Origin: Streptomyces sp. NBC_01241
GTDB lineage: Bacteria > Actinomycetota > Actinomycetes > Streptomycetales > Streptomycetaceae
Assembly: GCF_041435435.1 (NCBI RefSeq)
Contig: NZ_CP108494.1
Coordinates: 1,550,001 to 1,614,000, forward strand
Direction: 5' to 3'
Length of the DNA: 64,000 nucleotides
The translations under genes and the position numbers were made by a program. Positions within the stretch are counted from its first letter, which is position 1; every line of letters begins with the position of its first letter. The notes under the pieces were generated by a model that was given only the letters and a program-made list of their open reading frames with translations, was not told the origin of the DNA and did not search any database. Shown piece after piece: positions 72 through 50,647 of this stretch.

Positions 72-743
72 TCAGGTGGTGGTGCGGCCCCGGCGGGCCA
101 GCAGGCGTACCGCCGCGTCGCCGATCAGCTGGATCACGGTCACGATGACGATGAGCAGCGCGACGGTGATGAGCATGAACTGGTTGTCGAAGCGCTGGAA
201 TCCGTAGGTGACGGCCTTGGAGCCGAGCCCTTCGCCGCCTACCGCGCCGGCCATCGCGGAGTAGCCGATGAGCACGATGACGGTGGTGGTGACGCCGGAG
301 ACGAGCGAGGGCAGTGCCTGCGGGAGCAGTACCTTGCGGACGATCGTGGGGATGGATCCGCCCATCGACTGGACGGCCTCGACGAGCCCGTGGTCGACCT
401 CGCGGACGGCCGTCTCGACGAGCCGTGCGAAGAACGGGATGGCGCCGACGGCCAGCGGCACGATCATCGCGGTCGGGCCGATGAAGGTGCCGACGACCCA
501 GGTGGTGAAGGGGATCAGAGCGATCAGCAGGATGATGAACGGCAGCGACCGGCCGATGTTCACGATCACTCCGATGATCTTGTTCACCGGAGTGTTCTGG
601 AGCAGCCCGCCCTTGTCGGTGAGAACCAGCAGGACACCGAGCGGCAGCCCCACGAGAACGGTGACGACCGCGGACCAGAGCACCATGTAGAGGGTGTCGA
701 CGGTTCCCTGGGTGAGCAGCGGCTGCATTTCGGACCAGGTCAC
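72..743 (-). CDS. metI: Methionine ABC transporter permease MetI
   Basis: Integral-membrane subunit of the D/L-methionine importer. The 223 residues are almost entirely hydrophobic helices (about five membrane spans) and carry the binding-protein-dependent permease loop near residues 130-150 (VQSMGGS...LLPQALPSLVSG), the coupling site for the ATPase. Length and sequence are typical of MetI. The start is GTG, and its bases overlap the TGA stop of metN (GTGA), so the two genes should be translationally coupled. Sequence left of this gene (1-71) contains only a spacer with a purine-rich AAAGAGG site on the minus strand. This suggests that the binding-protein gene metQ starts just outside the window. 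Confidence 0.95.
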   Translation of the reverse strand: MTWSEMQPLLTQGTVDTLYMVLWSAVVTVLVGLPLGVLLVLTDKGGLLQNTPVNKIIGVIVNIGRSLPFIILLIALIPFTTWVVGTFIGPTAMIVPLAVGAIPFFARLVETAVREVDHGLVEAVQSMGGSIPTIVRKVLLPQALPSLVSGVTTTVIVLIGYSAMAGAVGGEGLGSKAVTYGFQRFDNQFMLITVALLIVIVTVIQLIGDAAVRLLARRGRTTT

Positions 744-1801
744 TTCGCCACCTCCTTGGTGAGCGGGGCGGGGGTCTGTACGGGGATGGAGGCGGCGTCG
801 TGCTCCACTACCTCGGCCTGCAGGCCCTGCTCGCGCAGGAAGCCGATCGGGACGACGTTCTCCTCGAAGCGGCCGGGCAGTTCGATGCGCATCCGGCCGA
901 TCTGTTTGCCGCCGACGGTGTCCATCGCGGCGCCCAGGATCGAGATGTCGATGTTGTACGTACGGGAGAGCTGCGAGATCAACGGCTGGGTGGCGGCCTC
1001 GCCGTGGAAGGTGACGTCGACGACCGTGCGGTCGGGGCCGGAGGCCGTACCGCCGACGGGGAACAGTTCGTGGGCCAGTTCGGAGCCGGGGGTGGCGAGG
1101 AGTTCGCCGACGGTGCCGGATTCGATGATGCGTCCCCGCTGCATCAGCGCGGCGGAGTCGCAGATCGTCTTGACGACGTCCATCTCGTGCGTGATGAGCA
1201 GGACCGTCAGGCCGAGCTGCTGGTTGAGGTCGCGCAGCAGCTGGAGGATGGAGCGGGTGGTCTCGGGGTCGAGGGCGGAGGTCGCCTCGTCGGAGAGCAG
1301 CACCTTGGGGTCGCCGGCGAGTGCGCGGGCGATGCCGACGCGCTGCTTCTGACCGCCGGAGAGCTGGCCCGGGTAGGACTTGGCCTTGTCGGCGAGGCCG
1401 ACGAGGTCGAGGAGTTCGAGGGCCTTGCGGGCCCGGTCCTTGCCGGATACGCCGAGGATCTCCAGCGGGAGTTCGACGTTGTCCTGGACGGTGCGGGAGG
1501 CCAGCAGGTTGAAGTGCTGGAAGACCATGCCGATGCGGCTGCGTGCCTCGCGCAGTTCCTTGCCGGCCCGGCGGCCCCGGCCGGCGAGTGCGGTGAGGTC
1601 CTGGCCGGCCACGGTGACGGTGCCGGAAGTGGGGCGTTCCAGGAGGTTGACGCAGCGGATGAGGGAGGATTTTCCGGCGCCGCTCTGTCCGATGACGCCG
1701 TACACCTCGCCCTCGCGGACGTGCAGGTCGACGCCGTCCAGGGCGGTGACCTCGCGGTCGCGCGACTGGTAGACCTTCGTGAGGCCCGTAGTGGTGATCA
1801 C
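740..1801 (-). CDS. metN: Methionine ABC transporter ATP-binding protein MetN
   Basis: ATPase that powers methionine uptake with MetI. Visible in order are Walker A (GQSGAGKS, about residue 40), the Q-loop (FQHFNLL), the signature LSGGQ, a Walker B variant (VLLSDEATSALD) and the H-loop (ITHEMD). They are followed by the C-terminal NIL regulatory domain of about 75 residues, which binds methionine in this family. I chose the GTG at 1801, which gives the usual N-terminus VITTTGLTKVY and 353 residues. The reading frame stays open far upstream, with an ATG at 1855, but that extension is arginine-rich and does not resemble the family. The stop overlaps the metI start. Upstream lie a small Cys/Met-rich leader ORF and an inverted repeat. 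Confidence 0.93.
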   Translation of the reverse strand: MITTTGLTKVYQSRDREVTALDGVDLHVREGEVYGVIGQSGAGKSSLIRCVNLLERPTSGTVTVAGQDLTALAGRGRRAGKELREARSRIGMVFQHFNLLASRTVQDNVELPLEILGVSGKDRARKALELLDLVGLADKAKSYPGQLSGGQKQRVGIARALAGDPKVLLSDEATSALDPETTRSILQLLRDLNQQLGLTVLLITHEMDVVKTICDSAALMQRGRIIESGTVGELLATPGSELAHELFPVGGTASGPDRTVVDVTFHGEAATQPLISQLSRTYNIDISILGAAMDTVGGKQIGRMRIELPGRFEENVVPIGFLREQGLQAEVVEHDAASIPVQTPAPLTKEVAK

Positions 1802-2025
1802 AGGGTTTCCGTCACTGTCGAGTGCGCGGCGCGGTGTCCGCCGGGCACGGGGCATTCGTCTGATGAGACTGTCCGGGCGTTTCGATCGGATGTCCCGAGC
1901 GGGGATCTCGGCACGGCTGCGGGCGGCGAAGGGCCGGGCAGCGGCGCTCGGGCAGGCTCGTTCCGCTGGGTGCGGACGGCTCGGGCTCGGTCTCGCTTCG
2001 GGGCGCGAGGATCGGGCGGGGGCCC

Positions 2026-2112
2026 TCAGAGGGTGCGCATTCGACACATACAACGAGCACCGGGCGTCGTGATCGCCTCGGTCGCAAGGATGCGGTCGCT
2101 CGTCGTGGTCAT
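2026..2112 (-). CDS. Candidate Cys/Met leader peptide upstream of metN
   Basis: A 28-codon ORF starting ATG at 2112 and ending in TGA. It lies on the same strand as metN, with about 225 bp between its stop and the metN start. Its last ten residues read ARCMCRMRTL, with two Cys and two Met codons packed into five positions. A GC-rich region able to fold follows the stop. Streptomycetes are known to use short Cys-rich leader peptides ahead of sulfur-metabolism genes. By analogy, slow translation of this run under Cys/Met starvation could control read-through into metNI(Q). The Shine-Dalgarno site is weak, and expression is an inference. Confidence 0.4.
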   Translation of the reverse strand: MTTTSDRILATEAITTPGARCMCRMRTL

Positions 2113-2150
2113 GCGGCAAGTAAATCAGACGTGACGTTCCGCCCTGCCCG

Positions 2151-2171
2151 GCTGTCCGAATAGCGGACAGC
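2151..2171. promoter_or_regulatory. Inverted repeat upstream of the metN leader
   Basis: Perfect 8-bp arms GCTGTCCG and CGGACAGC separated by AATAG, about 40 bp upstream of the leader ORF. Its position fits an operator for the metN transcript. No regulator is identified. Confidence 0.35.
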
Positions 2172-49074: not shown

Positions 49075-49463
49075 GGATCCTCCTCGGTAGCACCACGCGG
49101 CCGTCTGGCGGACAGCCACGTAACGTCTGTTTTCGTCAGACCAACCGCGCCGGTGCAAGAAAAATGCCCCGGACGGGACACAGGCGGGGCTCCTGGAACA
49201 ACCGGAACACCGCCGCGGTCAACCGCGGGGCGTATCGGGCGGCTCCATCGTCCGTACGGAACGATGGGCGCCACCTGACCGGTGACCCGCCGTCCGAACG
49301 GACAGCCAGGTGGGAGATCGGAGCCTCCACTTGTGGGCTGAGCACATAGCTGCACAGCCGGTCGTTACACCAGGCTAGCAGCTCCCCCGGGCGGGCGCGA
49401 ACCGGCTGCCGCCCACCGCTCCCGCAGACGGGGCGGCATCGCAATGGGCCTATCGTATGGCGC
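49075..49463. other. infC leader and intergenic region
   Basis: About 390 bp. It holds the 5' leader of infC and the promoter of the DUF1844 gene. A 7-9-7 inverted repeat (CCATCGT 49245-49251 and ACGATGG 49261-49267) is present. No gene is seen. Confidence 0.5.
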
Positions 49464-49909: not shown

Positions 49910-49918
49910 GGCAGCGGA

Positions 49919-50647
49919 TCAGCGGGTGAACAGCGTCCGGCCGGGCGTGGCCGCATCGGCCGGGAGCAGCGCCAGGTCCAGGCCCCGCTCCAGGCGGGCA
50001 CGCAGGACGTCATCGGCCGCCAGCCGTTCCGCGACCCGGCGGGCCGCGTCGGCGGGGTCCGCGCCGGGTTCGAGGACGAGGGCGAGGGTGCCGTCGGCCC
50101 GGCCGGGGCCGAGGTGGGCGCGGAGTACCGCGGGCTCGGCGGCGACGGCGTCCCGTACCGCGGCGGTGACCGCGGGGTCGTCCAGCGGGTCGGCGCTGGT
50201 GCGGCCTTCGGCGAGGGCCAGCAGCGCGGACCCGGTCAGTTCGAACGCGACCGGGCCGGCGAGATCGAGGACCACCGTGTCCGCCTTCTCGTGCGCGGCG
50301 GCCTGCAGCGCCTGGTGCAGGGGCACGGCGACGGGGCGGGCCTGCGGATCCCAGAGCGCCAGCGATGCGGTCGAGGTGAACGCGGGCAGCGCGCGGCGGT
50401 CCCCTGCCTGAAGGGTCGGGACGGCCATGTCGCTGGTCTTCTCGCGGCGCAGGCCGTTCTCGTCCTCCTCCACCTCCCCGAGCACGGCGACGACCGGGAC
50501 CAGGAGCCGGGCGCCCTTGAGGGCTTCGAGTACTGGGCCGATGGCCTTTCGGTCCTCGGCCCAGGCGGCGAGTGCCGCGCTCAGGGCCGGGTCGGCCGTG
50601 CCGTCGTCGTCGGAGTAACCGGGGTCCGGAATGTTCTTCATCGCCAC
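49919..50647 (-). CDS. SseB family protein
   Basis: 242 residues. The N-terminal part (LLVPVVAVLGEVE, VPTLQAGDRRALPAFTSTASLALWDP, PVAVPLHQALQAA) matches the SseB N-terminal domain. No enzymatic motif; the family was named from Salmonella, but the Streptomyces role is unknown. Starts at GTG 50647 or ATG 50641. Confidence 0.85.
   Translation of the reverse strand: MAMKNIPDPGYSDDDGTADPALSAALAAWAEDRKAIGPVLEALKGARLLVPVVAVLGEVEEDENGLRREKTSDMAVPTLQAGDRRALPAFTSTASLALWDPQARPVAVPLHQALQAAAHEKADTVVLDLAGPVAFELTGSALLALAEGRTSADPLDDPAVTAAVRDAVAAEPAVLRAHLGPGRADGTLALVLEPGADPADAARRVAERLAADDVLRARLERGLDLALLPADAATPGRTLFTR

Follow-up and report, generated by a model that had tools for sequence, protein, structure and literature searches.

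A conserved Cys/Met leader peptide and its structured leader RNA upstream of metNIQ in Streptomyces and related actinobacteria

The methionine importer operon metNIQ of Streptomyces sp. NBC_01241 is preceded by a short upstream open reading frame (uORF) whose end is rich in cysteine and methionine codons. It was studied in a stretch of 64,000 nucleotides (contig NZ_CP108494.1, positions 1,550,001 to 1,614,000), referred to below as the window. Comparison across loci demonstrates that the frame, the codons, the RNA elements and the C skew of this leader are conserved, and the leader peptide is very likely under selection for frame, for Cys and Met codons, and for RNA. The preferred reading, tentatively held at slightly below even odds (about 0.45), is that the leaderless uORF serves as a ribosome-based sensor of charged Met-tRNA and Cys-tRNA, controlling metNIQ through an off state linked to Rho. 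Off-switches are known for few of the leader peptides of actinobacteria, a group in which intrinsic terminators are scarce. If the reading is true, a joint sensor of Met and Cys and rare synonymous codons with a regulatory role would be of wider interest.

The leader peptide and its operon

The features of the operon and of the uORF are as follows:

72..743, minus strand: metI (MetI-like permease), the next gene after metN
740..1801, minus strand: metN, GTG start at 1801, with ABC_tran and NIL domains
2026..2112, minus strand: uORF (metL orthologue), 28 codons, ATG start, TGA stop, peptide MTTTSDRILATEAITTPGARCMCRMRTL
2038..2052, minus strand: candidate sensing codons UGU AUG UGU CGA AUG (C-M-C-R-M), the last Met four codons before the stop
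2119..2124, minus strand: -10-like TTTACT, six bases before the uORF ATG, recognised by conservation
2152..2170, no strand assigned: palindrome CTGTCCG-N5-CGGACAG upstream of the uORF promoter, a candidate operator

Because the metN domains are followed in succession by metI and, just beyond the window edge, by an NlpA lipoprotein gene, the operon is assigned as metNIQ; the NCBIfam models TIGR02314 (MetN) and PRK10782 (MetI) are the top scorers for the two proteins but stay under their curated cut-offs. The first-pass annotation had described a 28-codon ORF on the metN strand ending in ARCMCRMRTL, with two Cys and two Met codons in five positions, and both descriptions are accurate (2112-2026 and 2052-2038, minus strand). 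The uORF is separated from metN by 224 nt. When the 400 nt preceding metN are shuffled 1000 times with dinucleotides preserved, an ORF end as rich in Cys and Met arises 5 times. No family in Pfam or NCBIfam was found for the uORF peptide, and the metN leader matched none of the Rfam covariance models (SAM riboswitches, Streptomyces-metH, Streptomyces-metK and others); the sole weak Rfam match in 1700-2420 lies on the opposite strand, under the gathering score, and belongs to an unrelated family.

The uORF is not undescribed, because it is the orthologue of metL (SLIV_29928), which precedes metNIQ in S. lividans TK24 and encodes the peptide MSTTSDRTPATEATTTPGARCMCRRMCAF (PMC8079986, 2021); the first-pass annotation had not been aware of a described Cys/Met attenuator for metNIQ in Streptomyces. 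In the available part of that publication, metL has a leaderless start according to RNA-seq, its leader forms several hairpins while lacking a typical terminator, and the methionines and threonines of the peptide are named, not its cysteines (PMC8079986). The window uORF shares with metL its orthologous position and a near-identical peptide. As far as this part of the account goes, it makes no mention of a sensing role for the Cys codons, of the post-stop motif, covarying junction, codon bias or C-rich leader, or of a reach past one species. The available part of a 2005 actinobacterial survey reports that RNA structures were not found before methionine operons (PMC1262725). A literature search with most subscription papers outside its scope returned no other description of a metN leader, nor any of the conserved RNA parts, codon bias or taxonomic reach of the metL leader.

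The position of TTTACT fits a leaderless start of the uORF. The palindrome upstream of it has its only perfect copy in this genome here. Allowing up to two mismatches, it recurs at 113 of 127 Streptomyces loci, whereas a control with the pattern reversed turns up at 1 of 127. It is a likely transcription-factor operator for metNIQ; no regulon was recognised at the two nearest one-mismatch sites elsewhere in the genome, viewed as raw ORFs.

Reach, frame and codon choice

Both the ORF and its Cys/Met codons, whose conservation in close relatives the first-pass annotation had proposed to check, are conserved: the uORF is found at all 137 Streptomyces metN loci with at least 120 nt upstream (134 by script, with L128, L224 and L225 making up the rest). 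This count leaves out loci with less than 120 nt upstream as well as L081, L118 and L119, whose genomes are already represented. The script missed L128/L224 (one genome) and L225, at which the peptide starts with MN; L224 and L225 were read by eye. Loci fetched by metN provide the fair test of presence, and the uORF occurs in 24 of 24 loci of other Streptomycetaceae genera that were fetched by metN alone. Kitasatospora loci also carry it, and the share there and in most Streptomyces loci says little because these loci were fetched by peptide. At one locus (L250), metN is absent from the stretch. All counts of loci and sequences given in this text are uncorrected for kinship.

A search with the 28-residue peptide, admitting E values up to 10, finds a match in 148 of 150 Streptomyces genomes, for the most part below 1e-4. 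Thirteen of the genomes have a weak match or none: six of them are without metN at E 1e-70 (G022, G044, G079, G110, G112 and G145), in two metN is cut by a contig end (G008 and G050), and five have metN plus a diverged uORF. A model of the element, R1, gives one strong match in its own genome (E 1.4e-19, the next being 0.038) and, under strict filters, falls below 1e-11 in 16 of 197 genomes of the class, which are exactly the 16 Streptomyces among them. Eight weaker R1 matches (L328-L333, L349 and L350), read by eye, revealed no Cys/Met uORF.

In a family of Actinomadura-like genomes, an ORF end so rich in Cys and Met that at most 5% of shuffles reach it occurs at 20 of 39 loci, and the mean score is 3.7 for the metN strand and 1.2 for the opposite one; the uORF of L016, at -373, lies mostly outside this shuffle scan. 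Across families, only the end C-R-M-C-x-x-stop is common, and the body of the peptide differs completely. Six Actinomadura relatives (L130, L275, L276, L283, L285 and L286) feature a differently built, very Met/Cys-rich ORF before metN, for example VMCRAARMCGMSRTCCAMGGMPSMR.

Among distinct sequences that have both the -10-like anchor and a CGAATG, the ATG and the last CGAATG are in the same frame in 137 of 137, at 11 distances from 63 to 135 nt that are all multiples of three; for the subset fetched by metN the count is 57 of 57. Between CGAATG and the hairpin loop downstream, by comparison, the spacing is spread over the three phases (71/21/27). On these comparisons, translation of the uORF is well supported.

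Codon choice was assessed in a set of 195 uORFs restricted to ends that fit a regular expression (L220, L237 and peptides of other shapes being excluded) and leaving out 12 further loci, for the most part duplicates from genomes already represented. The last 11 codons always include one or more Cys and one or more Met in these 195, and UGU makes up 362 of the 525 Cys codons in that stretch, compared with 3 of 182 in Streptomyces metN. The last Met is preceded by CGA in 191 of 194; in metN, CGA accounts for 2.1% of Arg codons. The distance of the last Met from the stop is four codons in 183 of 194 (with two to five allowed by the regular expression). Plain sensing of starvation would not need so strict a preference for CGA and UGU, which points to a further constraint. 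The terminal Met is absent from L268 and from L220, outside the set, where several Cys codons are kept, and CRMC-like units are repeated in L299 and L308-L310.

Structure and composition of the leader RNA

Four elements of the leader RNA were delimited:

2050..2106, minus strand: predicted three-way junction of the uORF coding RNA, with P1 2106-2098/2058-2050, P2 2094-2091/2086-2083 and P3 2082-2074/2066-2059, from folds and covariation
2021..2027, minus strand: GAGGGCC motif overlapping the uORF stop codon, from conservation
1992..2009, minus strand: hairpin CUCGC-GCCCCGAA-GCGAG, from folds and covariation
1816..2025, minus strand: C-rich leader (C over G), a candidate Rho entry region by composition only

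Consensus and single folds agree on the junction and the hairpin. The first-pass annotation had noted a foldable GC-rich stretch after the ORF, which corresponds to the hairpin at 2009-1992, and the RNA of uORF plus hairpin folds better than shuffles (z -2.73). Among 75 Streptomyces sequences, double-sided changes occur in 6 of 26 pairs, at least one in each of four helices, a result that 0 of 500 shuffles reach. Pairing is kept in 97.3% of cells in the true alignment as against 24 to 44% in slid versions; the version slid by -2 also has 6 pairs with double changes, but in 8 cells rather than 14. In 49 sequences from several genera, 2 of the 5 hairpin pairs show double changes.

In the window, the hairpin begins 16 nt after the uORF stop and consists of five pairs without a U tract. 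Loci that have it by regular expression number 125 of 127 in Streptomyces, 14 of 30 in Kitasatospora, 15 of 24 in the other Streptomycetaceae and 9 of 14 in the Actinomadura-like group. Outside Streptomyces, GAGGGYC and the hairpin are both found at 38 loci, neither at 21, GAGGGYC only at 9 and the hairpin only at 0, a co-occurrence for which Fisher values are too optimistic because kinship is uncorrected. The hairpin is thus dispensable in places, since 9 of 47 GAGGGYC loci outside Streptomyces lack it, as do 16 of the 30 from Kitasatospora. Pairing between the loop sequence GCCC and the GGGC within the post-stop motif is conceivable, both being invariant.

Many of the Kitasatospora leaders that lack the hairpin (L228-L240) have a common stretch, TGATGACTCGTTAGGGCCACGCCC, farther downstream, perhaps a replacement for the GCCCC-loop hairpin. 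A second conserved short ORF, M...HLLSHAPYPPGxx-stop, of 18 to 22 codons, is found in 9 of 14 Actinomadura-like leaders (L016, L258-L260 and L262-L266), 40-70 nt after the uORF stop and between the hairpin and metN. It contains PPG, a motif that slows ribosomes.

C exceeds G in all 195 leaders, and the change falls at the stop codon: in all four groups, C minus G lies between -0.08 and -0.12 over the final 30 nt of the uORF and between +0.15 and +0.23 over the 30 nt that follow the stop. As a control, 16 intergenic gaps in the window average 0.018 (sd 0.085), with one at 0.232. Going by composition only, the post-stop stretch would suit entry of Rho at a place that a ribosome paused close to the stop would cover.

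Modes of control

Sensing of Met and Cys supply for metNIQ by the uORF is likely, judging from its codons and the gene it precedes; Rho as the off step is a guess. In the preferred reading, the uORF coding RNA would fold as a three-way junction, with the sensing codons UGY-CGA-AUG-YGY coming next. When Met or Cys is short, the ribosome would wait near the stop, covering the stop codon and GAGGGCC and shielding the Rho entry region. When both are plentiful, it would finish and leave, GAGGGCC and the GCCCC-loop hairpin would constitute the off state, and Rho would gain access to the exposed C-rich leader and terminate transcription ahead of metN. A bolder version has the odds clearly against it: that this is a metN-specific class of ribosome-sensing RNA in at least two actinobacterial families, comprising a leaderless uORF that is also a three-way junction, a Met and Cys sensor of slow UGU and CGA codons nearly fixed relative to the stop, and a pseudoknot of GAGGGCC with the GCCCC loop that gates access of Rho to the C-rich leader. 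The deeply conserved parts of the metL leader can be mutated individually, and thus the choice between Rho and start-site control is directly decidable.

Start-site control would involve pairing between the regulatory codons and the metN start, where the relevant sites are:

1807..1824, minus strand: conserved metN start region CACUCGACAGUGACGGAA with Shine-Dalgarno-like ACGGAA
1821-1816, minus strand: UCGACA, complementary to UGUCGA of the uORF, from folds and without covariation

Under such translational attenuation, UGUCGA would pair with UCGACA by the metN Shine-Dalgarno and hide the start unless a ribosome waiting on the Cys/Met codons opened it. Of 126 single folds of Streptomyces sequences, 84 to 94 contain the predicted helix, as does the window fold, and conservation around the metN start is strong within the genus. 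However, its strength against shuffles is modest (mean z -0.76 in Streptomyces), and cognate pairs are no stronger than permuted ones in Streptomyces (n=101, p 0.615) or within each other group, p 0.022 being reached only in a pool that mixes the groups. Furthermore, the UCGACA site is absent from Kitasatospora and Actinomadura-like loci even though CGAATG is kept there. The predicted folds of the leader contain several helices, with no conserved mutually exclusive pair besides this helix. As far as the available part of its description allows comparison, the LEU element of leuA in Actinobacteria is similar in that regulatory codons can pair with the gene start region and a terminator is lacking, and differs in that the metN pairing has no covariation and, beyond Streptomyces, occurs in only a few sister genera (PMC1262725). 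Start-site sequestration of the LEU type is unsupported, the pairing showing no coevolution, and translational attenuation is judged unlikely.

Canestrari is said to have described, in 2020, leaderless polycysteine uORFs of mycobacterial cys operons, and translational attenuation at metN would resemble the account that other papers give of mycobacterial Cys uORFs. Such uORFs are mentioned in the available part of a further paper (PMC13236596), and the available part of the 2005 survey holds an earlier prediction on Cys uORFs before mycobacterial cys operons (PMC1262725). As these sources present them in part, the likeness lies in a short leaderless ORF with Cys codons near the stop, placed before sulfur genes and with no evident intrinsic terminator. 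The mycobacterial uORFs have Cys-only runs before cys operons, whereas the window uORF alternates Cys, Arg and Met before a methionine importer (C-M-C-R-M, with no Cys pair and hence no consecutive Cys run), and the conserved post-stop RNA motif is a feature of the metN leader.

In TnaC and other uORFs that control Rho near their stop, the spacing between sensing residue and stop is set, and a C-rich stretch lies behind the stop; in TnaC, arrest is caused by a metabolite acting on the nascent peptide. The metL orthologue likewise has a C-rich, G-poor stretch directly behind its stop. Conceivably, the C-R-M-C end halts the ribosome on a sulfur metabolite rather than on uncharged tRNA, in keeping with its near-fixed distance from the stop, with conservation confined to the C-terminal residues and with the onset of the C-rich stretch at the stop. 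The end nevertheless accepts replacement of M by T and of C by R as well as inserted repeats, which is unusual for an arrest peptide, the peptide does not explain the constrained choice of synonymous codons, and an importer needs induction upon shortage. Nascent-peptide arrest is given a small chance; unlike for TnaC, starvation is the simpler reading here, and a role of Rho at metN is a guess from composition.

A comparably small chance is assigned to the RNA itself (CGAAUG, GAGGGCC and the GCCCC-loop hairpin) being the regulator, bound by a protein or a ligand, with the uORF a mere carrier. Conservation of CGA, UGU and the post-stop sequence at the nucleotide level and the covarying helices would be expected of it. 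The frame, kept without exception over 11 lengths, argues against it, as do the Actinomadura relatives, where Cys/Met-rich ends are kept without the GAGGGYC motif.

The attenuator proposed by the first-pass annotation stands in one part, a Cys/Met leader peptide under strong selection for frame and codons, and falls short in the other, no U-tailed terminator of the classical kind having been found in the leader. A classical attenuator with intrinsic terminator and antiterminator would account for a leader peptide with regulatory codons and for hairpins downstream. However, a scan of the metN leader for intrinsic terminators found none, its only terminator-like site sitting upstream of the uORF; the conserved five-pair hairpin lacks a U tract; and the available part of the S. 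lividans account reports no typical terminator (PMC8079986), so that such an attenuator is very improbable. The uORFC-8-2 motif before cysS in Rhodobacterales, as far as its source is available, is similar in having a uORF with conserved Cys codons inside structured RNA and differs from the metN leader in its U-tailed terminator and in using Cys codons only (PMC8632094). A chance ORF, for which the abundance of short ORFs in GC-rich DNA might be cited (58 with 20 aa or more overlap the first 6 kb), is contradicted by the frame conservation, the reach in Streptomyces and other Streptomycetaceae and the 5 in 1000 shuffles, and its probability is negligible.

Elsewhere in the window, the C-rich control gap (0.232) is a 250-nt gap upstream of the ORF at 49918-50647 (minus strand); it is as C-rich as the metN leader and is possibly another regulated leader. 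The stretch at 49159-49366 (minus strand) has an Rfam match to Scr1601, a Streptomyces small RNA (RF02830, 165.5 bits).
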